Source: a virus
IMG/VR virus record: IMGVR_UViG_3300017788_001950
Coordinates: 1 to 64,000 of that record
Reading direction: 5' to 3' (one strand)
Length of the DNA stretch: 64,000 nt
Shown here: piece after piece, positions 22,430-52,847 of the stretch
Numbering within the stretch: position 1 is the first letter of the stretch
How the letters are laid out: each line of letters opens with the position of its first letter
The notes under the pieces: generated by a model
Databases searched by the model: none
What the model was told of the DNA's origin: nothing
Seen by the model: the letters and a program-made list of their open reading frames with translations, nothing else
Made by a program: the position numbers and the translations under genes

Positions 22430-24271
22430 TCAAACTGCCGTACCAATAATGTCCTGATTCTTGTACTTGATTTCGAAGATGGACCCAGGAGGGCCAAACA
22501 GAATTCCTCGAAAGGTGTTTGCTGGAATGTCAAACTGTTCCGAACTGTATGTCCGACTTCCATTTGTTCCATAGACGTTCTGAACCTCAACCGACACAAC
22601 CGACACAACGCCAGGGGTGTTGAAAATGATGTTCTGAATGTCGCCAATGACCAGGGGCTGGTCAATCTCAAAGTTCTTAATGTCGAAGTAGTCCTTGAGC
22701 TTCTGCAAAACGTTTCTGATAACCAACTGACGGTTCTGGGTTGGATCGGTAACAACCTGGAACTGAATCTGGAGGTTGATGATTCGTGCGTCCAAAATGT
22801 CAATGGCGTCCGAGATCATGCGGTATTGATTAAGGAATAGAGCCAGGTTCTTCTTGAGAGTGTCTGGTGTTACGATGAGTTGGTTCTGGGCATTTCTGCA
22901 AACCACGAATAGCTGGCTGGCCAGCGGGTTATTTGGATTCGTCTGAATGCTAGCCCTGTAAACCCTACCAAAATTGGAAGGGAGTGTGTAGACCCTTGCT
23001 AGGAGGTCTTCCTTGGTAACGATTCTGCTCTGAGCGGCTGTAAAAGCAGGAATCTTCTGTTTGAGCTCCTGGATAGTTGGTGCATTTTCACCGCCAGCAG
23101 CCCTGTTCTCATTGGACACGTCAACGGAATTCCTTACGAAGGAAGCCATGTTTGGGGCTGGGTTGTTTGGAAAGGTAATGTCGAGGCTGGTGACGTTACG
23201 GATCGAGTCTGCCTCGACGTTGTGATTGAGACCACCACCATAGCGGTAGGTGACCGTGAGTGTCGTGTTAGGAGAAAGTACACCAAAGGTTGTGGTTTGC
23301 AAAAGATTGCCAGGATTTAGGGTGTATCTGGAAAACACCTTCTTGCCGTAAAGCGGAAGAGAAAACTCGCTGGGGTCTGGGATGATGTCGTCCTCGAGAG
23401 TCTCAGCACTACCACCACCGAAAGTAAGGGTGGTGATTCTGGTGTCCAGACTTGTTTCTGAGGTGAAACGGTAGGGAGCTGGAATCGGAACCAGATTTTC
23501 CCTTACGTCCTGGTTGTCTGGGGCGATGTTAGCAACAGCCTTGTAAACGGTATCCTGAGTGAGATAGTCCACCTTGTGATATTCATTTCCGTCGCTGTCC
23601 AGAACTCGAACAATCTCGGTCACATTCTCATTAGAAAGAGGAAGCTTCTTAAAGGCCTCAAAGGCACCAATGGAAAAAGTGTCCACGGCCCTAAAGCCAG
23701 AAATGCAAACTCCCTCAAGAGAAAGGATGAAGTTGGTTGGGTTATTGTTTTGGTCTCGGTTGCCGATTGCAATCGTGGCCTCTAGGTCACCGTTTTCCTT
23801 TGTACGAGTGAAGTCCAGGGTCTCTGTAAGCTCAAACTGAGTACCATTCTGGGCACGAGCCACAGATCCCTCGTGGATTATTGGAAGAGCCGAGGTGTCT
23901 GGAAGGGGAGGATTGGAGCCAGAGGCTGGAACCTTGACATAGAAGGCACAGTCAACCACCGCAGGTGCAGCACCAACAATTGGAACGCCTGCCTTCTTGA
24001 GGTGGCGCTCGATGTTATTGGTTTCGGTTGAGGAATCTGGGAAGTTTTCCTGGAACTGGTGATCGAGATAGAAGGACTGAACGTCGCCAACATAGGCCGC
24101 CATGTCCATTAGAAGGCCACCCAGACCTGCCTCAGAAAAGTCCTTGATGGCATCAGGAAAATAGGTTCGTGCATACTCAAGCAAATCAGCACGGAGAGCG
24201 TCAAAATCCTTGTTAAGGTACTTTCGCTCCCTGATGGTTTTCAGAATCTGGGTTTTGCTGTCTATTGTCAC
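22430..24271 (-). CDS. gp6: baseplate wedge protein, T4 gp6 / baseplate J-like
   Basis: A 613-residue protein with the layout of T4 gp6/baseplate J proteins. The N-terminal part has KDFDALRADLLEYARTYFP and LLMDMAAYVGDVQSFYLDHQ, the hallmark 'build the wedge' helices. The C-terminal part has KEDLLARVYTLPSNFGRVYRA, a TPDTLKKNLALFLNQYRMI segment and the ALR-like terminal domain. gp6 forms the ring linking the six baseplate wedges and governs sheath contraction. The start is GTG. It lies next to the gp25-like gene as in other T4-type baseplate clusters. Confidence 0.85.
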   Translation of the reverse strand: MTIDSKTQILKTIRERKYLNKDFDALRADLLEYARTYFPDAIKDFSEAGLGGLLMDMAAYVGDVQSFYLDHQFQENFPDSSTETNNIERHLKKAGVPIVGAAPAVVDCAFYVKVPASGSNPPLPDTSALPIIHEGSVARAQNGTQFELTETLDFTRTKENGDLEATIAIGNRDQNNNPTNFILSLEGVCISGFRAVDTFSIGAFEAFKKLPLSNENVTEIVRVLDSDGNEYHKVDYLTQDTVYKAVANIAPDNQDVRENLVPIPAPYRFTSETSLDTRITTLTFGGGSAETLEDDIIPDPSEFSLPLYGKKVFSRYTLNPGNLLQTTTFGVLSPNTTLTVTYRYGGGLNHNVEADSIRNVTSLDITFPNNPAPNMASFVRNSVDVSNENRAAGGENAPTIQELKQKIPAFTAAQSRIVTKEDLLARVYTLPSNFGRVYRASIQTNPNNPLASQLFVVCRNAQNQLIVTPDTLKKNLALFLNQYRMISDAIDILDARIINLQIQFQVVTDPTQNRQLVIRNVLQKLKDYFDIKNFEIDQPLVIGDIQNIIFNTPGVVSVVSVEVQNVYGTNGSRTYSSEQFDIPANTFRGILFGPPGSIFEIKYKNQDIIGTAV

Positions 24272-24302: not shown

Positions 24303-24788
24303 CTAAATAACGAACAGGGTGATTTCCAGCATCTCCTCTGTTAGATTTAGTGCTGGGATGCCATACATGAGGGTCAGGACCACGACGCCCGTGTAGAGGT
24401 TGTCAACGTAGTTTGGCTTGGACTCGTAGCCAATGAGGTTGACAAAGGACATGTACTTTGACACGGCCGAGGAAATTCGTCTCATGGCCTCTTTGTCGAA
24501 GTCTTCCTTGTTGGACCACTCCGTGAGCAGCGGCCTTAGGTTAGCACCGAAGTCATACATGCCCAACCTTTCTCCGTGATTGGAAAGCACCAGATTTCTG
24601 AGATTGTCCGCAAGCTGTTCCCTGAGGGAGTAGTGCATTACAAACAGGCCCCGCCCATTTTCATCCAATTCCAAGGGCGTCTTAATACCAATTGGCAAAG
24701 GATCCGGGCGAATGGTACGCAAGGCATTGCGGCTGGCACCCTTGGTGCCAACGTCCTTGAATGAGAGCATTGTGTTTTTGTTTGCCAC
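24303..24788 (-). CDS. gp25: baseplate wedge protein, gp25/GPW-like
   Basis: A 161-residue protein, close to the usual size for T4 gp25 (about 130). It has the family pattern near residues 65-85 (RNLVLSNHGERLGMYDFGAN, then LRPLLTE) corresponding to the T-x-x-GER..P.FG..L motif, and a C-terminal strand pattern VVVLTLMYGIPAL. gp25 nucleates the tail sheath on the baseplate and sits in the wedge core with gp6. The stop codon is within a TTATTTAG sequence that resembles the promoter-like motif seen elsewhere. Confidence 0.88.
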   Translation of the reverse strand: MANKNTMLSFKDVGTKGASRNALRTIRPDPLPIGIKTPLELDENGRGLFVMHYSLREQLADNLRNLVLSNHGERLGMYDFGANLRPLLTEWSNKEDFDKEAMRRISSAVSKYMSFVNLIGYESKPNYVDNLYTGVVVLTLMYGIPALNLTEEMLEITLFVI

Positions 24789-25170: not shown

Positions 25171-26877
25171 TCATTGACCGAAAATTTTCTTGGACTTGGC
25201 GTCGTCGGGGCGAACCGTGTCAACCTTCTGCTTGATTGCCTGAATGTTGGCTGCAACCTGAGGCCGTTCCGTTTGGGCCGTTACCACAAGCTGAGTGATT
25301 GGAGAATATGGAATAGCTGTGGCTGAGGTGAAAGCCAGGTGGTGGCTGTCAGCGATTCTCTTTACCTCATCAGCAAGGGCCTTTATCTGTGTCTTGAGTT
25401 CCTCGATCTGTGCCTTGTAGTAGGTGAATCTGATGTAGGGCTCCTTCTCGTCCTCTCCTCGTCCAAGGATAATCCTGTGAGCCTCAAGCTGCATGTCTGC
25501 ATCCTTGTCGATGTAGAGATAAGCCAGGGTGCCGTTGGAAGTCTCTGCGTCTGAGGCAGTGGCTGCGGTACTCGGAGTTCCGCCTCTCTGTGCGGTGTCC
25601 CTAACGCCCTCTCTAACGATTAGGATTGTGCCATCAATGTTAGAGTCCGTGTCCCTTCTGGCGACCACTCTGATGTGATCGGCCTTGGAAACAACGTAAC
25701 TCCTTCCAAAAACCCCATTTTCCTCTGGCTGGACGTTTGGAAGGGCCTGATCTGGGTATTCCTGACCCTCATTACCATTGGCAAGAACCAAGCGAAAGTT
25801 CTCATCGGCCCGGCTTTGCTGAACCACATAGACCTTTGCGGCATCATGTCTGTGATCGGGGTCACCTTCTCTTGGGTTGGCCTGGCCTTCCCTTGAGCTT
25901 CTGAAAGGATTTTTGTCCGTCTCTCGGAAGTTTCGGGTGTTGGTTGTTACCAGGGGGCTGGTGCTCTTGTCCTGCGGGGGATTTGTGCTCTGCGAGCCCT
26001 CACGGGGGTTGTTTCCTGGCTCTGGAAAGTAGCGACCCCTACCTGCGATGATTTGAACGGCGGCGGCCTGTCTTGGGGCCGTTGGAGACGATCTCTGGAT
26101 ATCCACAGGGGTATCCTGGATCGACCCGGAGATAGGACCATTGCGGTCCTCTCCCAGAACGATAATGGCATTGTTGGAACCCTGGAGAACAAACTCCTGA
26201 GGTCTTTTCTTCCATCTTGGAACTGGCTCCGGGGTAATGTACCTAGCAGAGACGCTAGTGTCCGCAATGACCTGATAGGGATTTGTGTCAATGGTTCCGC
26301 TAGGCTGGAGAGTAAACGTGTCAGCGGTATTCCCACCGTTCTGAAACCCGACTGCGGGTGGGCTTGTGTTTCTATCTGAAACCTGCTTGGTTGTGTAGTG
26401 GGCCGGATTTGAGGTCGGGTCAAATCTCCTGTCATAGTGGGTGAAGTTGGCGTCCTCGACCGTCTGCTCGCTGTGGATTCTGGTAAGCCAGTAGCCAACC
26501 TTTGCACCGGTACCGCTGTAGTCCTCATAGATAACAAACACCTGCTCCCCAGGTTGAACCGGGAGCATGAAATGCGAGGAGAACATGGGGAAAAAGACGG
26601 CATGGGTGCTCGGACCAACGCCACCCTGGTTGCTTACGATACGCCCGATGATGGAGCCGACCGGCATTATGTCAATAAGCTCTGGGTTGTTGACAAGATT
26701 GGCAAGGTCGTCCAGGTATTCCTCCGAAAGAAGGGAGGTGTCCATGATTACGTCCACAACCACTGCTCTTTGAAGGGACGGGGATTCCCCTTGGGTTGCA
26801 AGTTGCCTTACATGGCCCTCGATTGAGGATCCTGCTCTTCCAATCCTACGAGTAGCTGTAGTGACGATACGGCTCAT
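25171..26877 (-). CDS. baseplate central spike protein, gp5-like OB-fold
   Basis: A 568-residue protein. Residues about 70-135 (MPVGSIIGRIVSNQG, FFPMFSSHFMLPVQPGEQVF, YEDYSGTGAKVGYWLTRIH) form the OB-fold domain that begins T4 gp5-type spike proteins. No lysozyme motif follows. Instead there is a low-complexity Pro/Arg/Ser middle, a beta region (HIRVVARRDTDSNIDGTILI), and a C-terminal helical segment (YYKAQIEELKTQIKALADEV). So it is likely a spike without cell-wall hydrolase. It is followed by the gp25-like and gp6-like wedge genes. Confidence 0.78.
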   Translation of the reverse strand: MSRIVTTATRRIGRAGSSIEGHVRQLATQGESPSLQRAVVVDVIMDTSLLSEEYLDDLANLVNNPELIDIMPVGSIIGRIVSNQGGVGPSTHAVFFPMFSSHFMLPVQPGEQVFVIYEDYSGTGAKVGYWLTRIHSEQTVEDANFTHYDRRFDPTSNPAHYTTKQVSDRNTSPPAVGFQNGGNTADTFTLQPSGTIDTNPYQVIADTSVSARYITPEPVPRWKKRPQEFVLQGSNNAIIVLGEDRNGPISGSIQDTPVDIQRSSPTAPRQAAAVQIIAGRGRYFPEPGNNPREGSQSTNPPQDKSTSPLVTTNTRNFRETDKNPFRSSREGQANPREGDPDHRHDAAKVYVVQQSRADENFRLVLANGNEGQEYPDQALPNVQPEENGVFGRSYVVSKADHIRVVARRDTDSNIDGTILIVREGVRDTAQRGGTPSTAATASDAETSNGTLAYLYIDKDADMQLEAHRIILGRGEDEKEPYIRFTYYKAQIEELKTQIKALADEVKRIADSHHLAFTSATAIPYSPITQLVVTAQTERPQVAANIQAIKQKVDTVRPDDAKSKKIFGQ

Positions 26878-26941: not shown

Positions 26942-29086
26942 TTACTTGCCGTATCTGAAAATGCCCAAAATCTGGTTGAGGGCACTGAATGGATAGGTCA
27001 ACTTATAGGTATTTCCCTTCCATTGAAAGACCACGCCCTCGATGGCATTCTTAAGCTCACCGGTCTGAGCCATCTTTGCGAGGTTTGCGGCAAGTTTTGC
27101 CGACATTTCAGGGTTGAGTGCACCGGAATCCAACTGGTCCTTGATGTTATCCAACTCCTGAGCAAGCCTCTGTGTTTCTTTCTTGGGCTCCAAAAGAAGA
27201 ATGCTGTGTAGGTCGTTAAGAACCTGAAGGGTCAGGAGGTTGATTCCCATCACCACATCCTCGATTGCTCTTTTGCCAATCAAGTCGGCCTTTGCAAGGA
27301 GCTCCTTGACAGCAGTATTTTGTTCAAGAGGAGTGTTACCAAGAGAAATCCTTGCAGCCTCTAGAGCAACTAGAATCGCTTGCCTACGTTCGCTCGTCTT
27401 TCCATCAATGGCAGCCAAGGCTTTTCGGGCTTCTTCTGGCCATTCACCAATTTGAGGAAGACTTGAGGCAAGGGCTGATTCCACCAGGTCTCTGAGGGTT
27501 GAATTGTTGCTGAGACCATACTTGCCCTGTACGAAGTTTAGGGCCTGAAAACCCTCTGCAAAGGCCTTTACATCCTTCACGCCCAGAAGCTGTCTAACCT
27601 TTGGACCATGAATTTGCCAGTTCTTCTGGGCAATTTGCGTCTTGGTATTTCCAATCAAACTAATCAGGGAGTTGAAAATCTCAGGGTTCTGCATCTGAAC
27701 AGCCTCTCCGTTCTGGTTAACGGACAAAGCCGAATCATGGATAACGAGATGGTCGCCATCGTAGTTGATCACGTTAGGGTTTGCAGAGCTTGTCACCTCA
27801 GCAGAAAACCACACATTACCATTTGGACCAAACAGTTTTGACAGAACATTCTTATTCAGATGCGAGATGCTAGCCTGCAAAACGTCATAGGCCTCCAAGT
27901 AGGCAGTCTGTACCTTTGGAAGTGCAGCCCACTTGGCAACAATTTCCTCACGACCAATTCCACCAGTCTTGAGATGGCTCTTGTTTCGGGCAAACTTTAC
28001 CTGACCCTTGGACACGTCATAGGTGAAGAAAACGTTCTGACCGTCAATCTTTTCCGTAACCGGAATGACATTTTTCCTTGAGGCCAGAGTTCGGAAGATA
28101 TCCTTGATCTCAGCAAAGGTAAGGTCCAGGTTATCCTGGAGGTGAGACATGTGTCCACCAAGACCACCCTCAGTCAAGTAATGTTTGACTCCAATCTCCT
28201 CTGTGAAGCCGTAGTCCAGAACAACCACTCTTCCATCAGCGGTCATACCCAGATGCTCATCACGCATCATGATGTCGTCCAGTTCAAGACCCATTGTTCT
28301 TTTCATCTCTAGAAGTCCAGTTAGAAAAGTCACAGTGGTTGACATGTCTATCTTTGCCATGGCATGAGCCATTTTTGTTTCACGTTTTTTGAGCTCTCTC
28401 TTGCAGGCCCTGATGACAGTCTGAAAAAGCTCAGGATCTACTGGCTCATCGTCCCTCTCAGCATTTTCGATTTGAGTTATCTTAGGTCTGAGCGCAACAC
28501 CTTCATGTCCTTCTGGTCTTGGAAAGCCATGAAACCAAATATACTTGTCCCACTCAACATAGTGTTCCCTGAAGCCGCTATGGATAATGTTCTCGATGCT
28601 TTTTGTTGAGTCTTTGGATGCAAGCTCGAGCTCGCGGAGTAAAAACGAAATGTTGTAGTCAGACGGGAAGCCCAGGCGAGACCGTGCATATTGGCCTCTG
28701 CCGGTATCCAGTGGTTTCACCAATTCCGATATGATCCAGTGGAAATCTCGGTCGTAGTCGAAGACCTTGGCAACCACGGGCTTAGCCAAAGGATTGCTGA
28801 ATACGTCCACCTCGGCTTTGTTCTGCGCCTTGCCAGCCGATCGCATCCCATAGGCAATTTTGAGAACCTTACCGGAGTCATACAAAAATACGGCTCTGCT
28901 GGAACCCTTGCCAAGGAATTGAAGACGTGCCATGGCATACTCATAGGCTTGCTTTTCACTAAAGAGTTTTCGGAACTCTCGAATATCAAAATGCTTGTTG
29001 CCGGTTACTCGAATTTCACCCATTTCCTCCTCTAGTGGTCTATTGGAGGTCTCTATGAATTCAAGTAGTGATTGGAGGTTGCTCAC
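26942..29086 (-). CDS. kinase-like domain fused to ligase-type nucleotidyltransferase, 714 aa
   Basis: Residues about 55-300 look like a protein-kinase fold. There is a glycine-rich loop (LGKGSSRAVF, 58-67), a beta3 lysine (VLKIA, K76), and a catalytic/metal segment RDEHLG (275-280) followed by VVVLDYGF, where DYG (291-293) replaces DFG. The usual catalytic-loop Asn is a Met. Residues about 335-450 carry a nucleotidyltransferase-ligase signature: EKIDGQN (motif I, K346), FARNKSHLKTGG, and VWFSAEVTSSANPNVI (E430). The C-terminal 250 residues are helical. The start is GTG. It lies between the spike gene and a 162-residue gene. The activity of either half is not proven. Confidence 0.6.
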   Translation of the reverse strand: MSNLQSLLEFIETSNRPLEEEMGEIRVTGNKHFDIREFRKLFSEKQAYEYAMARLQFLGKGSSRAVFLYDSGKVLKIAYGMRSAGKAQNKAEVDVFSNPLAKPVVAKVFDYDRDFHWIISELVKPLDTGRGQYARSRLGFPSDYNISFLLRELELASKDSTKSIENIIHSGFREHYVEWDKYIWFHGFPRPEGHEGVALRPKITQIENAERDDEPVDPELFQTVIRACKRELKKRETKMAHAMAKIDMSTTVTFLTGLLEMKRTMGLELDDIMMRDEHLGMTADGRVVVLDYGFTEEIGVKHYLTEGGLGGHMSHLQDNLDLTFAEIKDIFRTLASRKNVIPVTEKIDGQNVFFTYDVSKGQVKFARNKSHLKTGGIGREEIVAKWAALPKVQTAYLEAYDVLQASISHLNKNVLSKLFGPNGNVWFSAEVTSSANPNVINYDGDHLVIHDSALSVNQNGEAVQMQNPEIFNSLISLIGNTKTQIAQKNWQIHGPKVRQLLGVKDVKAFAEGFQALNFVQGKYGLSNNSTLRDLVESALASSLPQIGEWPEEARKALAAIDGKTSERRQAILVALEAARISLGNTPLEQNTAVKELLAKADLIGKRAIEDVVMGINLLTLQVLNDLHSILLLEPKKETQRLAQELDNIKDQLDSGALNPEMSAKLAANLAKMAQTGELKNAIEGVVFQWKGNTYKLTYPFSALNQILGIFRYGK

Positions 29087-29095
29087 GGGTTGCTC

Positions 29096-29584
29096 TCAGT
29101 GCCCATCCTGGGCGGTTTTCTGAATGTGAGCATACATCTCATCCTCGGTCATGGTTTCATCAATCTGCTCCTGGGAGGCACTGGAAACCATCTCGGCTAG
29201 CTTGAGGATTTGATCATTGGCCTTGGACATGCGCTCCATGTACCTGGAAAGGTTCTGACCATGGATTGCGTGCTCCGTGGGATTGGTGGAAACGAACACA
29301 TAGAGGTCTGCCCACATGATGTAGGCGTTGTTTCTGTCCTGCACAGCGTTCTCATAGATTTGCTTCCACAGGGCCTTCTGCTTGTCCTCGACCGAGGAAA
29401 GGTTGTTCAGAAGCCCGGAAAAGTCCAGGAGCTGACGGTTGATTTTCTGGTCAAGCTCGTGAACGTCAACGCCCTTGAACTTCGTTGGTTCTCCTGTTGG
29501 AACCGAGGGCTCATCCGGTGGCATTTGACCTGGAAAGGATTGAGCAGGAGGAGTGTACACATTGGATTTTTTGCGTGTTGACAT
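29096..29584 (-). CDS. hypothetical protein, 162 aa
   Basis: Unrecognised. The first 35 residues are Pro/Ser-rich and look disordered. The rest is helical (VHELDQKINRQLLDFSGLL, DKQKALWKQIYENAVQDRN). The start is ATG with an AGAGG site 6 bases upstream. It is transcribed divergently from the plus-strand gene at 29639, across a 54-base gap with a perfect palindrome. Its stop is 9 bases before the kinase-ligase fusion. It may be a virion or accessory protein. Confidence 0.55.
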   Translation of the reverse strand: MSTRKKSNVYTPPAQSFPGQMPPDEPSVPTGEPTKFKGVDVHELDQKINRQLLDFSGLLNNLSSVEDKQKALWKQIYENAVQDRNNAYIMWADLYVFVSTNPTEHAIHGQNLSRYMERMSKANDQILKLAEMVSSASQEQIDETMTEDEMYAHIQKTAQDGH

Positions 29585-29638: not shown

Positions 29639-30841
29639 ATGAGCACCAGTCCTCAAGTCTACATCCACCTAACCGACAAACAGGGTGCCCTGGGCATTCA
29701 GAAAACCAAGACTCTCTGGGCAAGCTCCATCGTTGAGGGCGTCTATGCCGTTGCCGTTGGAGGAACCTTCGTTCCTGATGTTCAGATGACACGCCTGGGC
29801 CGGGCAAAATCTCGTTTAACCGCCGTCTATTTCACGACTCCTCTTCTCCCGGACTACTGCACCCCAGAGGAGTGCGTCTGGAAGCACTCAGAAATCCCTG
29901 TAACAATCGTCAAAATCGCCAATGCACTCCAGGCCAGGCGGGACCTTGACAGCTCCCTAGGGGTTTTAAACAAAGACTCCTATCGGGAGCGCCTGATGAT
30001 TCCCACAAAAGAGATGCCAGATCCAGAAAATCCCCCAGACTTCCTAATTGACGAAAATCTAGAAACCCCTACAATTAAGGCCTTGGTTGAGAATTTGGTG
30101 GAAAACGTCCTTTTGGGACTGTCAGAGGAGATTGAGGAGGCCGCAAAGACCCCGGAACAGGCAGCCCAGGCCAACTTGGCCCTGTATGGCATATTTCTAG
30201 GTGATGTGATTCACCTTTATCTGTTTGACAAAAGCAAACTGACCACATTCATTGAACTACGGGATCTCTTGAGGGAGTCCAATGCAGTCTTCGACAGGCG
30301 ACTCCCTGAGATCCTACCGCCTGATCAGGCTGGAAAGATAACGACCTCTGAGCAAGTCAAGGCGTATGCCGAGCAGCTCCTAGGAGAAATCCTCCTGGGC
30401 ACCATTGCGGCCACGGTGGCCTTTGAGCGGAGCCAAAACAACGAGAAGATTTGGAGAGTGACGCAGTCTTCCGCAGAAAAAGGATATGGCCCTTTGCTGT
30501 ATGAGGCTATGATGACCTTCATTAATGGAGACTGGATTGCTCCTGATGCAAGCTCGGTGAGTCCTTCAGCAGAAAAGGTCTGGTCTACGTTTGCAAAAAG
30601 ACCTGACATGCAAAAGGAACCCTCTAAACAGGAAAATCATCGCCACGACCCTGATGAGGCCCCTGATCTTACATTCATCTATAAACCCAAGGGTCCACGA
30701 GACACTAGCGCCCACAAGAAGCTACTAAACAACGCTGACCATCCAAGCAACCAACTTACAAATCCCGGCAGGTTCTTTTCGCAGATAGGAAGTAAGTTCT
30801 TTAGCAAGAAGTATCAGGCGGCCATTAGAGACGGACACTGA
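29639..30841 (+). CDS. lone plus-strand gene, possible ADP-ribosyltransferase-fold N-terminus, 400 aa
   Basis: This is the only gene on the plus strand. Residues 7-30 (VYIHLTDKQGALGIQKTKTL, then WAS) follow the H-x-T...I...G-x-L-x-x-S pattern that opens DarT/KptA-like ART folds, and LTAVYFTT (about 60-67) would be a core strand. The middle is helical and acidic. Residues 270-320 contain KGYGPLLYEAMM and VSPSAEKVWSTFAKR, a module I recall from phage proteins of unknown function. The tail is basic and disordered. The ribosome site is weak (AAGG only 2 bases away). ART assignment is tentative; other folds are possible. Confidence 0.45.
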   Translation: MSTSPQVYIHLTDKQGALGIQKTKTLWASSIVEGVYAVAVGGTFVPDVQMTRLGRAKSRLTAVYFTTPLLPDYCTPEECVWKHSEIPVTIVKIANALQARRDLDSSLGVLNKDSYRERLMIPTKEMPDPENPPDFLIDENLETPTIKALVENLVENVLLGLSEEIEEAAKTPEQAAQANLALYGIFLGDVIHLYLFDKSKLTTFIELRDLLRESNAVFDRRLPEILPPDQAGKITTSEQVKAYAEQLLGEILLGTIAATVAFERSQNNEKIWRVTQSSAEKGYGPLLYEAMMTFINGDWIAPDASSVSPSAEKVWSTFAKRPDMQKEPSKQENHRHDPDEAPDLTFIYKPKGPRDTSAHKKLLNNADHPSNQLTNPGRFFSQIGSKFFSKKYQAAIRDGH

Positions 30842-31781: not shown

Positions 31782-32213
31782 TCATTGGAGAGGAAGGTTT
31801 GGCCCTCTGTCCAGGGAAGATCCATCAAAGTCCGATGGAGGGGCTACTCTAGCACCACCCTGGGCTAGAGCCTCTGGAGACGGGATCTCCTCTTCTTGGA
31901 TAACTACGTACTTCTGCTTGCTTCGATCCACAAATTTCTGAACCAATCTGGTCACAGCAATTTTTCCGGCCTTTAGTTCAGCCATGGATTCTTGCACAAC
32001 CATCTTCACTTCCTTGCTGTCGAAGAAAAGCTGCATCTTGAGAATTTTTTCAAGGCTAGCCTCGACTGACTCAAGACTCTCTATGGCCTCGGAAAAATCA
32101 TCTTCCAGAAGGAGAATGATGTTTGAGAAACGCCACAGATAGGTTGCTGCAATACCGAGCACCACGAGGAGCATGAGATTGAGCAGAGCAGAAATAACCA
32201 GAAACCAAATCAT
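31782..32213 (-). CDS. single-span membrane protein, 143 aa
   Basis: Residues 2-27 (IWFLVISALLNLMLLVVLGI, then AATYLW) form one membrane segment; the rest is soluble. The central part has the pattern KMQLFFDSKEVKMVVQESM and VQKFVDRSKQKYV that I recall from many T4-related phages as a conserved unknown protein. The C-terminus is Pro/Gly-rich. It overlaps the upstream glycosyltransferase stop by four bases and precedes the sigma gene by 15 bases. Function unknown; it likely anchors to the inner membrane. Confidence 0.65.
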   Translation of the reverse strand: MIWFLVISALLNLMLLVVLGIAATYLWRFSNIILLLEDDFSEAIESLESVEASLEKILKMQLFFDSKEVKMVVQESMAELKAGKIAVTRLVQKFVDRSKQKYVVIQEEEIPSPEALAQGGARVAPPSDFDGSSLDRGPNLPLQ

Positions 32214-33382
32214 ATGATGCCCTTCAAAGCCTCGGTGTAGTGTTTAGCAATGGCCTCAAAGCTGTATTCCTTCTTGAGAATCTTGGAGAGATCCTTTGCC
32301 CACACTGTTGGCAAGCTAGGACTTTCCACAAACTTCTTGAGCTTGCGCTTTGCGTCATCCTCCGAGACTCGGCCCCACTGGAAACCCTGCTGGAAGATTT
32401 GACCGTCGATTCTGGACTCATGTACCGGAGCCAGTGTGGTGTCCACCTTAATGTACTTACCCCGACCCAGGAACTCTGTGTGAGCCGACCACCCGGAGGC
32501 GATTACAGGAAGGCCAGAAGCAGCCGCCTCAAGGATTGGGAGACCAAAGCCCTCACCCCTGGTGAGAGCAACCATGGCCTTAAGGGTTGGATTACGATAC
32601 AGGCCTGCCACTTCTTCATCCGTCATATCGCCGTGAAGGAGGTAGAAGCGTGGACTCGAGGTCTTCTGAACCTCGGTAAGAAGCTGGCTAAGAACCTGCT
32701 GGGTCTTAAGACGATCGATGGTGGTATTTCTACCCATGTTCGTCTTGATGACTACGCCTACATTTGGAGAATCCTTGAACTGCTCCGCAAGCCACTTACA
32801 GGTGTAGAAAAGATTCTTGCGATCGTTTTCCGGGTTGTTACCAGTGATCTGTCCAAAGACCAGGAAGTTGAAGTCAGTGGTAGCTTCCGTGAGAGGAAAG
32901 GGCTTAATGTCCTCTCGGAGGATGGCATCCACAAAGCTTTCTGGAACCACCTTGATTTCCTTCTTGAGAACCTTGCCGTCTCCTGTCAGAACGCCCTTCA
33001 CAAACTCCGAGGGAGCAATGATGAGGTCCATACGGTTGCATGCATTGATCCATTCTGGATTACACCGATCAGCCTCCACAGCAGCCGTTAGGCCCACGTT
33101 GAAGTCTGCCAAAAATGGGTTCCACTCATTTGGAAGCTGCAACTGTAGGGAAACGTCATACTTCGGCTTCTGTATGCTGTGTTGGATGATGCGACCAATC
33201 AAACCCCCGTGGGAGTCAGGATCGGTAAGCCATGGCGTGTCACCCCACCTGAGAGGCTCCGTTACTACCTCAATATCTCCACGACTGTCGGCTAGGTCAA
33301 ATAGCCAACGAGCAATCTGCCTGGCATGAACTCCATAACCGGATTGAGTCAAGAGAGGTGCTCTAAGAATAACGCTTTTCAC
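32210..33382 (-). CDS. glycosyltransferase, GT4 / GT-B fold
   Basis: A 390-residue protein with the GT4 layout. The N-terminal Rossmann half starts APLLTQSGYGVHARQIARWL, the typical acceptor-site glycine pattern. The C-terminal half has MVALTRGEGFGLPILEAAAS with GLPVIASGWSAHTEFL, the E-x7-E nucleotide-sugar motif. It would move a sugar from an NDP donor with retention of configuration. Neighbouring genes make GDP-sugars and an activated heptose, which are likely donors. It lies 2 bases from the next glycosyltransferase and overlaps the downstream membrane protein gene by four bases. Confidence 0.85.
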   Translation of the reverse strand: MKSVILRAPLLTQSGYGVHARQIARWLFDLADSRGDIEVVTEPLRWGDTPWLTDPDSHGGLIGRIIQHSIQKPKYDVSLQLQLPNEWNPFLADFNVGLTAAVEADRCNPEWINACNRMDLIIAPSEFVKGVLTGDGKVLKKEIKVVPESFVDAILREDIKPFPLTEATTDFNFLVFGQITGNNPENDRKNLFYTCKWLAEQFKDSPNVGVVIKTNMGRNTTIDRLKTQQVLSQLLTEVQKTSSPRFYLLHGDMTDEEVAGLYRNPTLKAMVALTRGEGFGLPILEAAASGLPVIASGWSAHTEFLGRGKYIKVDTTLAPVHESRIDGQIFQQGFQWGRVSEDDAKRKLKKFVESPSLPTVWAKDLSKILKKEYSFEAIAKHYTEALKGII

Positions 33383-33384
33383 TA

Positions 33385-34881
33385 TCAGGCCTTCTTTCTT
33401 TCGATTTTCGTAACCTTGACTTTGCTCAGAATCTTCTTATCCTCGTGGGGAATCACAGGCTCCACAGTATTCTGAACGCTTGGAACAACCATTGCTGGAG
33501 GCTGGTTCGAGGCAGCCGCATTCTTCCTGTCTTCTGCAAGGGCATTAACCGTCTTTGGAACGCCTGGCGAGAGTGGGAATAGCTTGGCCATGGAAGATTT
33601 GTTGGTCTTGAAGTTTTCGATGGTCGCAAGCATGGTTCTGTCCCACTCGCTAATCATCTTGTCAAAGGAGAACTCGTGGTCGCAGTAGGCCATGACCTTC
33701 GTCTTCATCTCGGCCTTCTGCTCTGGAGTCATCTCGTAAATCTTCATAAGAGCCTCAGACACCTGAGTCTCTGTGCAAAGGTCCTCATAGATGTAAGGAA
33801 CAAGCTGAGAGCCCACAAGGGAACGCTTGATTGGCTGAATGGCTGCTCCGTGCTCCGAACCATCTCTGTAGTCGATAACCTGGCGAGTCATGCCGCCAGT
33901 GCACAAAGCCACAATGGGCTTGCCAACCATCATGCTAATCATTGTGGACAGACCGAAGCCCTCATTCTTGGAAATGTTGATGCAGGTATCCGTGATATTG
34001 TGCATGAGGTTCATCTGCTCGAACTGTAGCTTTTCGGTGGAGAACCACACGTTGTTGCCTAGGCCAAGCTCCTCACTAAGGGCCAAGAGATTTGGACCCT
34101 CTGGATCACCAGGATCGGTGTGCATGATTAGGGTGGCATTGCGATGGCCATGCTTTGCCTCTAGGTCCTCAAGAAAGACCTTCCAAGCCAACAGAAGGTC
34201 GGCTGGCATCTTTCTCGTGGCATTCCTGTTAACCCACAGAACCTGGAACCAATCGGCACGGAGACCGTAATTCTGCTTACGGGCCAGAGCAACCTGATCC
34301 TCAGGGATTGGGAAATAGATGCTCTTAGGGAATGCGTGAGGAATGTAGTTGGTCTTATCCGGGAAAGCGGTCTTGACCATTTCGAAAGTCTTGTAGGACA
34401 GACAGTTAATCAGGTCCGTGCCCTCGTACCATGGGTAGTTGAACCTTGGATATGGGTCATTGTCCCAAACGTGCCAATACACAATTGGGCAGACTTGACG
34501 AATTTCGTCTTCCATCTCCCAAACCCACATGAACTGCCTTGGATCGGTGAAGAGGAAAATCGCATCTGGCTTCTCTGTGAGAAGGATGCTGCGAATCATC
34601 TCCTTGTTTCCGAAACCGTCCACCGGCTTCACAATGAAATCGGGATTGACAGCCACGGTGTCATAGTTGGCGTGCTTAATAGCTCCACCAAGACAACGAA
34701 ACGACCATCTGCCGGTCTGGATTAGACCCTCAATCAGGAAGCGAGCCTGGACACCAACACCGCTAGGTGCCAAGGGGTGATCTGACAACATGAGGACCTT
34801 TTGCTTCTTTTGTGGCTTCACAAAAAGGTCGTCATCAGACAGCAATTCTGTATCGTTTGATACTAGCAACGATTCTACCAT
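33385..34881 (-). CDS. glycosyltransferase, GT4-like with N- and C-terminal extensions, 498 aa
   Basis: GT-B fold signals are KVLMLSDHPLAPSGVGVQAR at the start of the first domain and ISKNEGFGLSTMISMMVGKP in the second (EGFG.. motif for the nucleotide sugar). It is longer than usual for GT4 because of about 25 residues in front and about 85 disordered residues at the end (SNQPPAMVVPSVQNTVEP). It follows a 73-base gap with a small hairpin, so it may have its own promoter. The sugar and acceptor are unknown. Confidence 0.82.
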   Translation of the reverse strand: MVESLLVSNDTELLSDDDLFVKPQKKQKVLMLSDHPLAPSGVGVQARFLIEGLIQTGRWSFRCLGGAIKHANYDTVAVNPDFIVKPVDGFGNKEMIRSILLTEKPDAIFLFTDPRQFMWVWEMEDEIRQVCPIVYWHVWDNDPYPRFNYPWYEGTDLINCLSYKTFEMVKTAFPDKTNYIPHAFPKSIYFPIPEDQVALARKQNYGLRADWFQVLWVNRNATRKMPADLLLAWKVFLEDLEAKHGHRNATLIMHTDPGDPEGPNLLALSEELGLGNNVWFSTEKLQFEQMNLMHNITDTCINISKNEGFGLSTMISMMVGKPIVALCTGGMTRQVIDYRDGSEHGAAIQPIKRSLVGSQLVPYIYEDLCTETQVSEALMKIYEMTPEQKAEMKTKVMAYCDHEFSFDKMISEWDRTMLATIENFKTNKSSMAKLFPLSPGVPKTVNALAEDRKNAAASNQPPAMVVPSVQNTVEPVIPHEDKKILSKVKVTKIERKKA

Positions 34882-34923
34882 GTTCTTCTCTTTCCCTATG
34901 TGTTAGTGGAACGTAACAATATT

Positions 34924-34937
34924 CGAGGAAAACCTCG
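34924..34937. other. small hairpin in the 73-base gap before the glycosyltransferase pair
   Basis: CGAGG and CCTCG pair across an AAAA loop in the 73-base gap between the GDP-mannose dehydratase gene and the next glycosyltransferase. No T-run follows on the minus strand, so it is at most a weak terminator or a processing site. Confidence 0.3.
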
Positions 34938-34954
34938 GATTGTGCAAAGGAAGG

Positions 34955-35944
34955 CTATAACGCCAGCTCTTTTTCGAAGTCGGCCTCGAACATCAATTTG
35001 GCCAAATCCTTAAACGTCACGCTAGGAGCCCAGCCCAGTTTTTCCTTGGCCTTGGCGTAGTCGCCCTTAAGGAGAGGAACCTCATGGGGACGAAAAAGCC
35101 TTTCGTTGATAACAAGGTGGTCATCGACCCTTAGGCCTGCCAACTTGAAAACCTCCTCAAGGAACTCACGAACAGAGTGTGTCTCACCAGTAGCAAGAAC
35201 ATAGTCGTCCGGCTTGTCCTGTTGAAGCATCTGCCACATGCCCCTGGTGTAATCAGGTGCCCAACCCCAATCTCTCATGGCCTCGAGATTTCCCAACTCA
35301 AGATTAGCCTGCATTCCAAGCTTAATTCGGGCGGCTGCCTGAGTGATCTTGCGAGTCACGAAAGTCTCACCTCGCCTTGGTCCCTCGTGGTTGAAAAGAA
35401 TGCCACAGGAAATGTGAAGTCCGTAGCCCTCACGGTAGGTTCTGCACAGATTGTGTGCACACAGCTTTGCTGCCGCATAGGGACTGACAGGCGTCATCTT
35501 AGTTTCCTCGTTTTGAGGAATGGCCACGTTGTCTCCGAACATTTCAGATGATGAGGCTTGATAGAAGCGGGCCTTTGGCACGACTTCCTTATAGGCATTG
35601 AGAAGCCTTAGAGTACCACCCGCAACAACATCCATAGTTTCCTCTGGAACCTCAAAGGATACCTTAACGTGGGATTGTGCGGCCAGATTATAGATTTCGT
35701 CTGGCTTCCACTTATTGAGGATTCGCCAAAGGCTGTAACCATCAGACATGTTGCCCCACTCGGTGTAAAAGCGGGGATTGGTGTAAATGTGCTCTACTCT
35801 GGCGGTATTGAAGGCACTGGTCCTTCTTCGAAGGCCAACAACGCTCTTGTAACCCATTTCGAGCAATTGCTCTGCAAGGTGAGAACCATCTTGACCAGTG
35901 ACGCCCGTTATGAATGCAACACGCTCACCGATTGGTTTAGACAT
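34955..35944 (-). CDS. gmd: GDP-mannose 4,6-dehydratase
   Basis: Converts GDP-D-mannose to GDP-4-keto-6-deoxymannose (NADP-dependent); the same family also dehydrates GDP-manno-heptose. At 329 residues it is a normal size. Key sites: GVTGQDG (14-20), the cofactor loop with the GMD-specific RRRTSAFNT, NLAAQSHV (86-93), SSSEMFG (131-137, Ser/Glu catalytic), Y156-x3-K160, and GILFNHEGPRRGETFVTRKI. The match to the GMD family is near complete. It is followed upstream by the epimerase-reductase gene. Confidence 0.93.
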   Translation of the reverse strand: MSKPIGERVAFITGVTGQDGSHLAEQLLEMGYKSVVGLRRRTSAFNTARVEHIYTNPRFYTEWGNMSDGYSLWRILNKWKPDEIYNLAAQSHVKVSFEVPEETMDVVAGGTLRLLNAYKEVVPKARFYQASSSEMFGDNVAIPQNEETKMTPVSPYAAAKLCAHNLCRTYREGYGLHISCGILFNHEGPRRGETFVTRKITQAAARIKLGMQANLELGNLEAMRDWGWAPDYTRGMWQMLQQDKPDDYVLATGETHSVREFLEEVFKLAGLRVDDHLVINERLFRPHEVPLLKGDYAKAKEKLGWAPSVTFKDLAKLMFEADFEKELAL

Positions 35945-35978
35945 GACCTAAGCATAGTGATCCCTGAATGTTTGTTTA

Positions 35979-36935
35979 TCAGCGGTTTACGCCACGAACA
36001 TTCGGGTAATTTTCCATAAACCATTGGCAGGTCTTTTTGAGGCCCTCAGCAAATGGTGTGTAGTCCGTGGCTTTCCAGCTAGTCATACTGAGCAATCTTA
36101 CGTTGGTAGATGGCTTGCGGAATTGGCCTACTGGAGCAGACTCATCAAAAACAAGCTCTCCTGTGTACCCAAGGTACTTTGCAAGGAGTCGAGCCACGTC
36201 CCCGATGGACTGTTCCTCGGAGACCCCAATGTTTAGTGGCATGTCATCATCATATTCCTTGGAGACCACGACCAAGATTCTTGCAATGTCCTCAGCATAC
36301 GTGAACTCCCGGAGCTGTTTGCCATTTCCCCAAATAGTAACAGTGGGCTGATTGAAAAGTCTGGCTTCCCAAATCCTTCGCATCAGAGATGGAATGACAT
36401 GCCCATTAATCAGATCGAAGTTGTCGTGCTCGCCGTAAATGTTGTTGGGAATGACAGTGACATACTTGAGCCCGTGCTGTTTCCTAATGGCCCTTGTGTA
36501 TACGTCAAGCATTCTCTTTGCAAAGGCATAGCCGAAATTGCTGGGATGAGGAGGACCGGCATGAAGCTGTTCCTCGCTAAGGGGCCACTTAACAAAGGGG
36601 GCATCTGGATACACACAGGTTGACAAAACCGACACCACCCTTGGCACCCACGCCTTAACACAGCCATTGAGAATGGTGGCGTTCATCACTGCATTGTCAT
36701 GATAGAAGTCAGCCAATCCCTCTGAGTTTGCCACAAGGCCACCTACACGGGCAGCCAAGTGATAGACCACATCAGGAGACGCATCTAGCAGACAGGCCTT
36801 GGTTTGCCCATGATCACGGAAGTCACGACGCTTACTTGAGGGAGCCTCAAAAGGAACCTGTTGCTCAGTGAGCACCCTTGAGAGGGCATTTCCAAGCATA
36901 CCAGAACCCCCGGTTATCAGGGCCTTTTCGGTCAT
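35979..36935 (-). CDS. fcl: GDP-L-fucose synthase-like epimerase/reductase
   Basis: An extended SDR of 318 residues. It has GGSGMLG (9-15), AARVGG (61-66), STCVYP (105-110, with Cys107), Y136-x3-K140 and NGHVIPSLMRR (His179). Positions of the catalytic Cys and His match the bifunctional 3,5-epimerase/4-reductase Fcl/WcaG. It would turn GDP-4-keto-6-deoxymannose into GDP-L-fucose, or the heptose analogue into a 6-deoxyheptose. Its start overlaps the GDP-mannose epimerase stop by four bases, and the gap to gmd is 34 bases. Confidence 0.88.
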   Translation of the reverse strand: MTEKALITGGSGMLGNALSRVLTEQQVPFEAPSSKRRDFRDHGQTKACLLDASPDVVYHLAARVGGLVANSEGLADFYHDNAVMNATILNGCVKAWVPRVVSVLSTCVYPDAPFVKWPLSEEQLHAGPPHPSNFGYAFAKRMLDVYTRAIRKQHGLKYVTVIPNNIYGEHDNFDLINGHVIPSLMRRIWEARLFNQPTVTIWGNGKQLREFTYAEDIARILVVVSKEYDDDMPLNIGVSEEQSIGDVARLLAKYLGYTGELVFDESAPVGQFRKPSTNVRLLSMTSWKATDYTPFAEGLKKTCQWFMENYPNVRGVNR

Positions 36936-37927
36936 TTCTTGCTCTGTTCGTTAATCCAGTGATATGTCTTGGCGAGGCCGACCTCAAGGGGCTCCGAAAC
37001 CTTCCATCCCATCTTCTCTTCAAATAGAGTATTATCAGACCTGCGTCCCATAACACCAATCGGACCAGGAATGTGGTTAAGCCGAATGTCCTTACCGGCA
37101 ATCTTGGAGATCATCTCAGCAAACTGGTTAATGCTGACCATCTCCTCAGAACCGATGTTCACGGGACCAAGGAAATCCGACTCCATGAAACGCTCCACTG
37201 CCTTGAGACACTCATCGATGTAGAGGAAGCTTCTCGTCTGCTTACCGTCTCCCCAGACCTCAATGGAGTCGCTGTTCTTGGCCATTGCAATCTTGCGACA
37301 CAGGGCCGCAGGAGCCTTTTCCTTGCCGTTATTCCAGGCACCCTCAGGACCGAAGATATTGTGGAACCTGGCAATCCTTACGTCCAGCCCATAGTTGCGA
37401 TTGTAGGAGAGATACACACGCTCACTGAACAGCTTCTCCCACCCATACTCCGAGTCTGGATTGGCTGGATAGGCACTGGACTCAACACAGTTGGGGTTAT
37501 TTGGGTCTTCCTGATTGTGGGCAGGATACATGCAGGCACTGGAACTGTAGAAAATCTTGGGCTTCTTGGCGCATTGCACAGCAGCCCGAACCACGTTTAG
37601 GTTAATGAGAGCCGAGCTGCTCATAACATCGGCATCGTGTTCCCCGGTGAAGATATAGCCAGCCCCGCCCATATCTGCGGCCAACTGGTAAATCTCGTCA
37701 AAGCACTCCTCCTCAGGAGCGAAGCGGTTGATCACCTTGTCAACGAAAAACTGGAAACGGAGATCGCCCTTGACAAAATCGTCAATCTGGTTGCCAAGGT
37801 CCGTGTACTCATGGAGCTTAATGTCCACGCCACGAACCCAACAGCCTTCCTTTTTCAGCTTTCTTGCAAGGTGTCCACCGATGAACCCACCTGCACCAAG
37901 GACCAATACTCTCTTCTGTTTTGTCAT
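36932..37927 (-). CDS. GDP-mannose 3,5-epimerase-like SDR
   Basis: A 331-residue extended SDR that strongly resembles GDP-mannose 3,5-epimerase. Signals: GAGGFIGG (11-18), QLAADMGGAGYIF (81-93), SSSACMYP (128-135), Y161-x3-K165, and IARFHNIFGPEGAWN with KEKAPAALCRK, then SFLYIDECL and GPVNIGSEEMVSINQFAEM. GME makes GDP-L-galactose and GDP-L-gulose; a related Campylobacter enzyme epimerises GDP-heptose. Substrate (hexose or heptose) cannot be decided from sequence. Overlaps the downstream SDR by four bases. Confidence 0.88.
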   Translation of the reverse strand: MTKQKRVLVLGAGGFIGGHLARKLKKEGCWVRGVDIKLHEYTDLGNQIDDFVKGDLRFQFFVDKVINRFAPEEECFDEIYQLAADMGGAGYIFTGEHDADVMSSSALINLNVVRAAVQCAKKPKIFYSSSACMYPAHNQEDPNNPNCVESSAYPANPDSEYGWEKLFSERVYLSYNRNYGLDVRIARFHNIFGPEGAWNNGKEKAPAALCRKIAMAKNSDSIEVWGDGKQTRSFLYIDECLKAVERFMESDFLGPVNIGSEEMVSINQFAEMISKIAGKDIRLNHIPGPIGVMGRRSDNTLFEEKMGWKVSEPLEVGLAKTYHWINEQSKK

Positions 37928-38778
37928 TTGCTGTGCTCTTTCATTTCGTCCATGACCAATCGAAGACCTTGACTAAGGCTAGTGGTCGGCTGCCAAATGT
38001 TCAGAATGTAAGGGTCTGGCTCATTTCGCTTATCCAACTGCACCGAGTCAATGGCCTTGGCAGGCACAACCTTTACACCGCCTCCGACCATATCGGCAAT
38101 GAGGTCAGCGACCTCCTTTACAGAGGACCACTGGAAGTTGGTGATGTGGTATTCCTTGTCCCTTGGAAGAATCGAGTAAAGTTCTGAAACCCTGAGCAAG
38201 GCACGAGCACAGTCCTCAGCATAAAGGAACTGCCTGACCTCCTGACCAGAGGTCATCATGTCAATGACACCAGTCTTTTGGGCCTTGAGAATGAAGTCTG
38301 TGATCACATGGGACTTGTTGAGGTCACGCTCATAGCCATAGACGTTCCAGAACTTCACGACAATCCCATTTAGGGTTCTCGTGTAACACTCACCAATTGC
38401 CTTTGCCACTCCATAAGGGGAATAGGACATGTTGGACATTTGGCTGCTAGCAAAGACAAAGGGTTTATTCCTTCTTTGAAGCTCCTCGAACACGTTGTAC
38501 ATAATGCCGACATTGTTGTGAAGGAAGTCGAAGGTGTGCTGGTACTTGGACAAATAGACAGAGCCACCCACATCGAAGGCAAGAAAGAAAACGAAATCGG
38601 CTTCCTCGATTTTCTTGGACCAGTGTTCAGGGTGAATTTCCAAATCAGGTTGACGCAAGTCCTGAGTCTCAGGTGAATTGACGATATCAACCTCCAACAC
38701 CTCATGTCCTTGTTTTTGCAAGAATGCCGTTAGGGGCGCACCAATCTGTCCTGCTGATCCTAGTATGAGATACTTCAC
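37924..38778 (-). CDS. NAD-dependent epimerase/dehydratase (SDR), 284 aa
   Basis: An extended SDR of the sugar-nucleotide type. GSAGQIG (7-13) binds NAD(P), SSQMSNMSYSPYGVAK carries Y122-x3-K126, and VKFWNVYGYE is the substrate-side loop. It is somewhat shorter than most 4-epimerases (about 310-340). I do not assign a specific reaction; it could be a 4-epimerase or 4-reductase acting on a GDP-keto-deoxy sugar. The four-base overlap with the GME-like gene suggests coupled expression. Confidence 0.8.
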   Translation of the reverse strand: MKYLILGSAGQIGAPLTAFLQKQGHEVLEVDIVNSPETQDLRQPDLEIHPEHWSKKIEEADFVFFLAFDVGGSVYLSKYQHTFDFLHNNVGIMYNVFEELQRRNKPFVFASSQMSNMSYSPYGVAKAIGECYTRTLNGIVVKFWNVYGYERDLNKSHVITDFILKAQKTGVIDMMTSGQEVRQFLYAEDCARALLRVSELYSILPRDKEYHITNFQWSSVKEVADLIADMVGGGVKVVPAKAIDSVQLDKRNEPDPYILNIWQPTTSLSQGLRLVMDEMKEHSK

Positions 38779-38782
38779 AGGT

Positions 38783-39400
38783 TCATCTCCTTACTGCCGA
38801 AAAAGCCTTACGAGCCCCTGCTGGGGAGTCCAGGCCCGGACCATAGAAGTCAAAGGTCCAATCTGGAAACTGCGACTGCCACCATTCCTCGGTTCGAATG
38901 TGCCAAAGGTGAGAGTGGAACTCACATCCAAAGCACTCCGAAAAAGACAAGGCAGAACCACTCTTTGCCACTACGTTAATCTGTCTCGCAATCTCAATCA
39001 CGTCGGAATCATCGAGGTGACTGAGAACGCAGAAGCAGTTGAAGATTGCCGGTCCTGATAGTTGAAGCTTGTCAATGGCATCCTGGGCAAAGGCGTTAAT
39101 CCAAGAAACTTTCTGGTTCTCGGGGTAGATTTTCTTGGCAATCTCCAGAGCAGCCGCACTTGGCTCAATGGCAAAAACCTTGTCCATGGTTTGGCTCATA
39201 AGGTTGGCAACCCAACCAGAACCGCAACCAATGTCCACGCCTATCTTGATTTTTGGATGAGCATCCAGGAGCTTGCCCAAGGGGGCATCCTGGTTGTACT
39301 GCACTCGATTTGCAGTATTGTGCTCGTGCCCGGCCTTTTCGTATTCGAACTTGCCGTTCGAGACGTATTCGGAGTTGTGGGCCTCATAGCTGTTTGTCAT
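38783..39400 (-). CDS. SAM-dependent methyltransferase, 205 aa
   Basis: The Rossmann motif I is KIGVDIGCGSGWVANLM (about residues 52-68), followed by acidic FAIEPSAAALEIAKK (motif II). A later segment ALSFSECFGCEFHSHLWHIR resembles Methyltransf_23-type enzymes. Likely methylates a sugar or the sugar-bearing target, since it lies among glycosyltransferases and epimerases. The acceptor is unknown. It overlaps the upstream glycosyltransferase by four bases. Confidence 0.8.
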   Translation of the reverse strand: MTNSYEAHNSEYVSNGKFEYEKAGHEHNTANRVQYNQDAPLGKLLDAHPKIKIGVDIGCGSGWVANLMSQTMDKVFAIEPSAAALEIAKKIYPENQKVSWINAFAQDAIDKLQLSGPAIFNCFCVLSHLDDSDVIEIARQINVVAKSGSALSFSECFGCEFHSHLWHIRTEEWWQSQFPDWTFDFYGPGLDSPAGARKAFSAVRR

Positions 39401-40578: not shown

Positions 40579-40582
40579 TCTC

Positions 40583-42159: not shown

Positions 42160-42165
42160 ATCTGC

Positions 42166-52755: not shown

Positions 52756-52812
52756 ATGAGTCTCTCTTTCTTTTGAGTGTGAAAACCGAAATCTGTTGAG
52801 GAGAAAAGCAGA

Positions 52813-52847
52813 GGGTGACCGTCCCGTTTGTGGGGAGTTGGTCACCC
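52813..52847 (-). other. stable hairpin in the leader of the DUF7873-like gene
   Basis: A perfect 8-bp inverted repeat (GGGTGACC and GGTCACCC) with an inner CCC/GGG pairing sits between a promoter-like sequence and the gene start at 52755. It is followed on the minus strand by TCTGCTTTTCT. It may be a terminator for the upstream nuclease gene or a regulatory 5' leader. Confidence 0.45.

Follow-up and report, generated by a model that had tools for sequence, protein, structure and literature searches.

Described phage kinases and RNA ligases

Several described systems resemble one or other half of the protein reported here. The polyvalent kinase proteins of Iyer et al. 2017, as the available portion of that work presents them, unite multiple enzyme domains in a single phage polypeptide and carry a kinase without the C-terminal subdomain (PMC5512222). 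The present protein shares both features, but it consists of two domains only and is not matched by the polyvalent kinase model PF18762; the same portion of that work mentions no fusion to an RNA ligase (PMC5512222). The phrog_4301 kinases of phages such as Klebsiella K64-1 and Salmonella Munch belong to the same family as our kinase half and carry the same motifs; however, they stand alone, and the rows of RaK2/Munch type retain the catalytic-loop Asn. Outside the phages, the available part of one report describes ArkI as a tRNA 2'-kinase whose phosphorylation of the tRNA 2'-OH confers nuclease resistance, and whose kinase fold, like that of our kinase half, is without parts of the C-lobe (PMC9095486). 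An RNA kinase on an altered kinase fold thus has its precedent in ArkI (PMC9095486). ArkI differs from our protein in being archaeal and in having no ligase, and its structure (7vnx) aligned with our kinase model at Z 5.8 and rank 48, no closer than ordinary kinases.

In predicted fold, and in having motifs I, III, IV and V in the same order, the ligase half is like the RNA ligases T4 Rnl1, T4 Rnl2, Naegleria RNA ligase and fungal Trl1, but it departs from these enzymes in falling below the cut-off of the RNA_ligase model PF09414, in a long helical insert before motif IV and in an invariant GHMxH near the start of the domain. T4 Rnl1 presumably has a second Lys in motif V, where our family carries an invariant Thr (T697). 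Whereas T4-type Pnkp plus Rnl1 repair uses a P-loop polynucleotide kinase, the kinase half described below has a protein-kinase-like predicted fold, which rules out an enzyme of the T4 Pnkp type.

A two-domain gene in a baseplate operon

The window, by which we mean the whole 64,000-nucleotide stretch analysed, belongs to a virus record of 65,737 bases that is possibly itself a fragment. A check of its reading frames confirmed a GTG-started frame of 714 codons on the minus strand at 26942-29086, beginning 9 nt past the upstream gene of the same strand. Its kinase-like domain spans residues ~32-305 (28172-28993), belongs to phrog_4301 and gave an AlphaFold2 model of pLDDT 81.3 whose matches lie in the kinase superfamily; the ligase-type nucleotidyltransferase domain occupies residues ~305-714 (26945-28174), and its model (pLDDT 80.8, pTM 0.78) had RNA ligases as its top matches. 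Alignment and folding were done for each domain separately; in a 50-row alignment of both together, kinase rows fell wrongly on the ligase half. Because the ligase domain starts ~10-14 residues past the DYG motif, the kinase half is without the usual large C-terminal lobe.

This is a real phage protein with two enzyme domains and conserved motifs, and family match together with predicted fold places disparate catalytic domains in one polypeptide, as in polyvalent proteins. A sequence-only reading of this DNA had proposed just such a fusion of a kinase-like and a ligase-type domain, next to baseplate genes and with no characterised precedent known to it, and had suggested structure prediction as a check; the single frame, the two recovered folds and the neighbouring genes bear it out. 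The baseplate setting is given by a wedge subunit-like gene at 22430-24271 (minus strand; phrog_219, E 1.2e-14) and a small wedge subunit-like gene at 24303-24788 (minus strand; phrog_261, E 0.0071). As far as the literature searched extends, with subscription journals mostly outside its coverage, the architecture is new: it held no fusion of a kinase with an RNA ligase like this one, and no paper on an RNA ligase domain together with a protein kinase domain in a phage. The component halves come from known superfamilies. NCBIfam gave zero matches for the whole protein.

Six-frame profile searches of 157 sequences found the fusion in the window record only (the window and one stretch, L005, cut from the same record) and in the contig L004, which carries an identical junction and matches the window at 99.978% identity over 4643 bases with 1 mismatch. 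Being nearly identical, L004 is weakly independent support for the junction. A fusion made by assembly is unlikely, since the junction recurs in L004 and another record, L142, has a kinase in the same slot.

We give an even chance to the reading that this is a bifunctional late phage protein, in which an RNA-ligase-type lysine nucleotidyltransferase is joined to a minimal phrog_4301 kinase. The evidence for each half, and the alternatives on which it bears, are taken up below.

The ligase half

The sequence-only reading had pointed to a KIDGQN motif followed by further ligase motifs, with K346 as the candidate adenylylation lysine; KIDGQN does start at that residue, and a 33-row alignment of the domain shows the conserved positions. 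An invariant His pair, H312 and H315 (33/33), lies in GHMSH at residues 311-315 (28142-28156, minus strand, as are all features of this gene). Motif I, EKIDGQ at residues 345-350 (28037-28054), holds the candidate adenylylated K346, and E345, K346, D348, G349 and Q350 are found in all 33 rows. It is followed by R367-N368-K369 (27980-27988), with R and N in 33/33 and K in 32/33 rows, and by the motif III glutamate E430 (27797-27799; 33/33). Motif IV is EGVVF, residues 683-687 (27026-27040), with E683, G684 and F687 invariant, and motif V is YKLT, residues 694-697 (26996-27007), with K695 and T697 likewise in 33/33. The KxDG of motif I and motifs III, IV and V in order are the features of the lysine nucleotidyltransferase (ligase/capping) superfamily, and its fold is recovered in the predicted model at Z 8.2-9.2 against RNA ligases.

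In VIA-align the first 26 rows for this model were all RNA, tRNA or editing ligases (Z 8.2-9.2; rmsd 3.6-5.1 over 180-215 residues), among them Naegleria Rnl, T4 Rnl1, Trl1, TbREL1 and T4 Rnl2, followed by DNA ligases, none above Z 7.6, and by a capping enzyme at Z 6.5. Foldseek matches were weak (best E 6e-3), and RNA or tRNA ligases again filled the first 11 rows; in BFVD several viral proteins annotated as RNA ligases rank after the family's own members and proteins of DUF6267 type. The Z values are moderate, and the invariant motifs are independent support for the assignment. Sequence models reach the superfamily less readily: PF09414 gave 12.6-14.2 bits, under its 27-bit curated cut-off, with the window match at 27959-28060 around motif I; Pfam on the window protein returned this sub-threshold RNA_ligase match (12.6 bits) plus one chance row; and the family profile run against PDB sequences found no ligase, chance rows only. 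The sub-threshold PF09414 score, the PDB sequence search without a ligase, the single Lys of motif V and the absent catalytic-loop Asn of the kinase half count against the bifunctional reading.

The kinase half

The first half matches phrog_4301 over residues 29-298 (E 1.4e-15). In a 22-row alignment that includes the window protein, the glycine-rich loop GKGSSR at residues 59-64 (28895-28912) has G59, G61 and R64 in 22/22 rows, the beta3 lysine K76 (28859-28861) is invariant, and the alphaC glutamate E92 (28811-28813) lies in a conserved QNxxE with Q88, N89 and E92 in all rows. The candidate catalytic aspartate D271 (28274-28276) is likewise found in 22/22, as are D291 and G293 of the DYG motif at residues 291-293 (28208-28216), so that glycine loop, beta3 Lys, alphaC Glu, catalytic Asp and DFG-type Asp are all present throughout. 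The glycine-rich loop, beta3 Lys and DYG named in the sequence-only reading are accordingly in place (G59-R64, K76, D291-Y-G293). Its further claim, that Met replaces the catalytic-loop Asn, does not hold: the 22-row alignment and an HMM alignment to a kinase rule it out, for M274 is a one-residue insertion missing from the 21 other aligned rows, and the place of the Asn falls, by the alignment columns and by the HMM alignment (e-h opposite E-N), on H278 (28253-28255). One feature of the protein-kinase-like superfamily, the catalytic-loop Asn, is thus not found in the window protein. That place holds H in 9/22 rows, S in 7/22, T in 3/22, N in 2/22 and another residue in 1/22, and sequence comparison indicates that loss of the Asn is a trait of the kinase relatives as a family and not damage in this one protein.

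The predicted structure agrees with a kinase fold. Foldseek matched the model to methylthioribose kinase (probability 0.99), and VIA aligned it with PurC (Z 8.3), IRAK4 (7.7), PRPK (7.2) and APH(2'')-IVa (6.6), while a search of PDB sequences with the kinase profile gave weak rows (best E 0.0059).

For this half the sequence-only reading had allowed for a pseudokinase or an AMPylator-like enzyme. The missing Asn (20/22 rows) and the missing C-lobe are what would be expected if the kinase half were a pseudokinase scaffold that binds a nucleotide or a partner and has lost catalysis, leaving the ligase half as the only enzyme. We regard this as somewhat unlikely: K76, E92, D271 and D291 are invariant in 22/22 rows, and ArkI, according to the available part of its description, works although its altered catalytic loop reads HGQ in place of HRD and subdomains VIII and X are missing (PMC9095486). 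The conserved set K76/E92/D271/D291 instead argues for a nucleotide-binding, possibly active kinase. A scaffold would in any case be compatible with the ligase part of the bifunctional reading that we prefer.

Relatives of the kinase

All 15 kinase-bearing records, the window included, match phrog_4301, and 0/15 match Kinase-PolyVal (PF18762) at E up to 10, so membership in the latter family is rejected. The stand-alone relatives in Klebsiella K64-1 and Salmonella Munch carry the annotation protein kinase. Two IMG/VR scans for relatives returned 32 and 30 loci in overlapping sets, and the relatives occur as single genes, as tandem genes or as the N-termini of long proteins. Such tandem runs comprise three adjoining genes in L093 (4413-6751) and two in L112 (4791-6991). 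The long proteins measure 640-2069 aa, some with ART-PolyVal, PolyA_pol or DUF7178 domains; among eight proteins of the kinase family that were scanned, PolyA_pol (PF01743, poly(A)/CCA polymerase) was found in 3/8, ART-PolyVal in 2/8 and both in 1/8.

These long proteins fit a second alternative, in which two independent activities are injected and act on host proteins, the kinase by phosphorylating them and the ligase fold by adenylylating a protein or nucleotide, with no part in RNA repair. Iyer et al. 2017 predict, in the portion available, host-protein targets for polyvalent kinases (PMC5512222), and the available text on cyanophage S-CREM2 records a kinase and a cytidylyltransferase from its virions (PMC10665884). 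Against this stands the unmatched polyvalent kinase model PF18762. To our knowledge, moreover, no ligase fold modifies proteins, and we judge the alternative unlikely.

The bifunctional reading, with RNA as a target, finds a hint in the company that the kinase keeps, although the records are few, partly related and partly fragmentary: PF01743 occurs in 5/14 kinase-bearing records (the window uncounted) versus 1/18 ligase-bearing records, and RlaP in 3/14 versus 0/18. The RlaP frame of L142 is ~0.9 kb ahead of the kinase, on the opposite strand. Neither PolyA_pol nor RlaP was found in the window record, and a kinase search over the 18 ligase-bearing records, a set without a known positive, was empty.

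The ligase family and its usual partner

Among 50,697 phage records only 3 carry the ligase half, namely Microcystis phage Mel-JY01, on which the literature search found no paper, and two uncultured large phages; two other family members used as queries recover the same three. IMG/VR, in contrast to this count, holds at least 592 confirmed stretches from at least 599 candidates, and in a scan of GTDB genomes 9 of 108 candidates were confirmed, all 9 in records titled MAG. Sequence kinship thus indicates that the ligase half is a member of a very large, unannotated and nearly uncultured phage family. The best 80 of the at least 592 IMG/VR stretches were kept, L004 among them, and the counts that follow concern this biased best set.

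A six-frame search of 122 sequences, on which a profile of the HIGH-type domain was also run, gave 85 ligase frames, 3 of which are the window, its L005 cut-out and L004. Among the remaining 82 there are 44 that a contig end cuts off, and 15 of these still show a HIGH domain. The 38 closed frames have the domain in the same polypeptide in 31 cases (25 before the ligase, 6 after it) and in an adjoining frame in 2. L011 and L041 show a divergent HIGH motif at their start by eye, L002 has a weak match (1.7e-4) in the next gene, L018 is apparently the same ligase as L014 in a stretch that breaks off too early, and L032 is a closed ligase frame without a HIGH domain. In a later set (L122-L130, L157 and L158), 9/11 are fused to the domain, as judged from the profile or from a weak profile match together with the motif; in L158 the motif is in an adjoining gene, and L130 is a fragment. 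The HIGH profile retrieves NMN adenylyltransferases first from the PDB (best E 1.3e-7), and tblastn links the domain to the KVP40 natV-type phage enzymes. By sequence, then, the family's partner is almost always an NMN-adenylyltransferase-like domain, fused or adjoining. Its site is usually just upstream of the large terminase, a homologue of that of Mel-JY01 lying 0.4-4.4 kb downstream in 76/94 ligase-bearing loci; of the 94, 53 have at least 4 kb of sequence downstream. Within L013 (1690-7197), a single 1835-aa protein bears the HIGH domain and the ligase at opposite ends, separated by more than 1000 residues that match neither Pfam nor PHROG.

A widespread, nearly uncultured phage module is thereby exposed, an RNA-ligase-fold enzyme that lies upstream of the terminase and has an NMN-adenylyltransferase-like partner domain, and one lineage appears to swap this partner for a minimal kinase. 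The window has no terminase match, and no HIGH domain beside the fusion gene.

The near-constant HIGH partner of the complete frames, with its kinship to PDB NMN adenylyltransferases and natV-type enzymes, raises the alternative of an NAD-linked transfer: the family would use NAD+ (or NMN chemistry) and not ATP, the partner would remake NAD+ from the released NMN, and in the window virus the kinase would replace that partner or the partner would lie elsewhere. Pfam, however, matched no NAD-ligase Ia-type domain, and near the window gene there is no HIGH partner, the sole CTP_transf_like match in the window lying at 42283-42546 among sugar-metabolism genes. We consider this improbable for the present protein, and the bifunctional ligase-kinase remains our preferred reading.

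Likeness to DUF6267 of cyanophages

BFVD matched the ligase half to a 591-residue protein of cyanophage S-PM2 (Foldseek E 2.0e-6 over 465 columns). The gene behind this match was chosen in the S-PM2 record by its 591-aa length; it lies at 39486-41261 and combines DUF6267 (1.6e-111) with CTP_transf_like. At E up to 1e-10 the protein has relatives in 506 phage records, most of them from cyanophages, and some of the matches cover one part only. In its predicted structure, and in a K-x-D-G motif seen by eye, DUF6267 resembles our ligase half, but it is fused to a HIGH-type domain where the window protein has a kinase. DUF6267 (PF19782) gave zero matches to the window protein at E up to 10, and a direct sequence kinship with the ligase family was rejected, no profile link being found; their kinship is one of predicted fold and shared partner only. 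DUF6267 was named nowhere in the literature searched, from which subscription journals were mostly absent. A ligase-like predicted structure fused to an NMN-adenylyltransferase-like domain in cyanophages offers this Pfam family a lead to function.

Origin of the fusion

The fusion gene lies between a 162-aa gene upstream (29096-29584, minus strand) and a 568-aa gene downstream (25171-26877, minus strand). L142, a 43.8-kb record in which no ligase match was found, encodes a 219-aa kinase without a ligase that is preceded by a homologue of the former (phmmer E 4e-23) and followed by a homologue of the latter (phmmer E 7.5e-37). Since the kinase stands alone there between the same neighbours, it appears to be at home in this slot of the baseplate operon, and a kinase gene already present there probably gained the ligase, or else the ligase was lost in L142. 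In a tree with long branches the window ligase groups with those of L157, L158, L122 and L127 (support 100/100). Kinase and ligase are found as separate genes in 2/14 kinase-bearing records, and their ligases are L157 and L158; as these belong to the window clade, the modules meet in related genomes, where one lineage seems to have fused them.

Proposed function

In the bifunctional reading, a ligase module that is normally HIGH-paired would have been joined to a kinase gene resident in the baseplate operon. Its K346, judging from the conserved motif set, would take AMP from ATP (or NAD+) and transfer it to the 5' end of a nucleic acid, most likely RNA, for sealing or end modification. A preference for RNA over DNA is hinted at by the ranking of predicted folds and by the PolyA_pol/RlaP company of the kinase. 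The N-terminal minimal kinase, possibly active as its conserved residues suggest, would prepare or modify that target itself or else a host factor. Judging from late expression next to structural genes, the fusion protein may travel inside the virion and begin its work early in the following host; Alt-type ARTs are packaged in virions, as the available portion of Iyer et al. 2017 states, and the late position of our gene beside baseplate genes parallels theirs (PMC5512222). For the kinases and cytidylyltransferases found in cyanophage virions, the available text of the S-CREM2 study cautions on contamination (PMC10665884). A canonical RNA_ligase gene scores over the cut-off in 6/33 records, and plain tRNA repair may therefore be covered otherwise.

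A more specific proposal, an RNA kinase-ligase on a protein-kinase fold whose phrog_4301 domain phosphorylates RNA, as ArkI does, while the ligase reseals cleaved RNA, would explain the company of the kinase family (CCA/poly(A) polymerases, RlaP and ligase) and would give one phage enzyme able to repair tRNA and also to shield it from host anticodon nucleases, but we hold it to be distinctly improbable. A single purified protein could tell charging by ATP from charging by NAD+, and RNA from protein as the target of the phrog_4301 domain.

Other genes in the window

The number of promoter-like sites equals the mean of shuffled sequences, whereas terminator-like sites exceed theirs. Adjoining the fusion gene, at 29639-30841, lies a lone plus-strand frame of 400 aa amid minus-strand genes; it has no convincing family match, and by eye its start looks like that of an ADP-ribosyltransferase-type protein. 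The other genes listed here are all on the minus strand. Glycosyltransferase, nucleotide-sugar epimerase and cytidylyltransferase-like genes at 32210-42882 probably form a sugar-modification cluster. Farther along the window are a strong DUF7873 match at 52027-52845 (E 8.7e-92), a PD-(D/E)XK / Exo5-like nuclease gene at 52915-53949, a gene of the IMP dehydrogenase / GMP reductase family at 53973-55046 (PF00478, E 1.9e-76) and a Prim-Pol primase-polymerase gene at 57039-59333.
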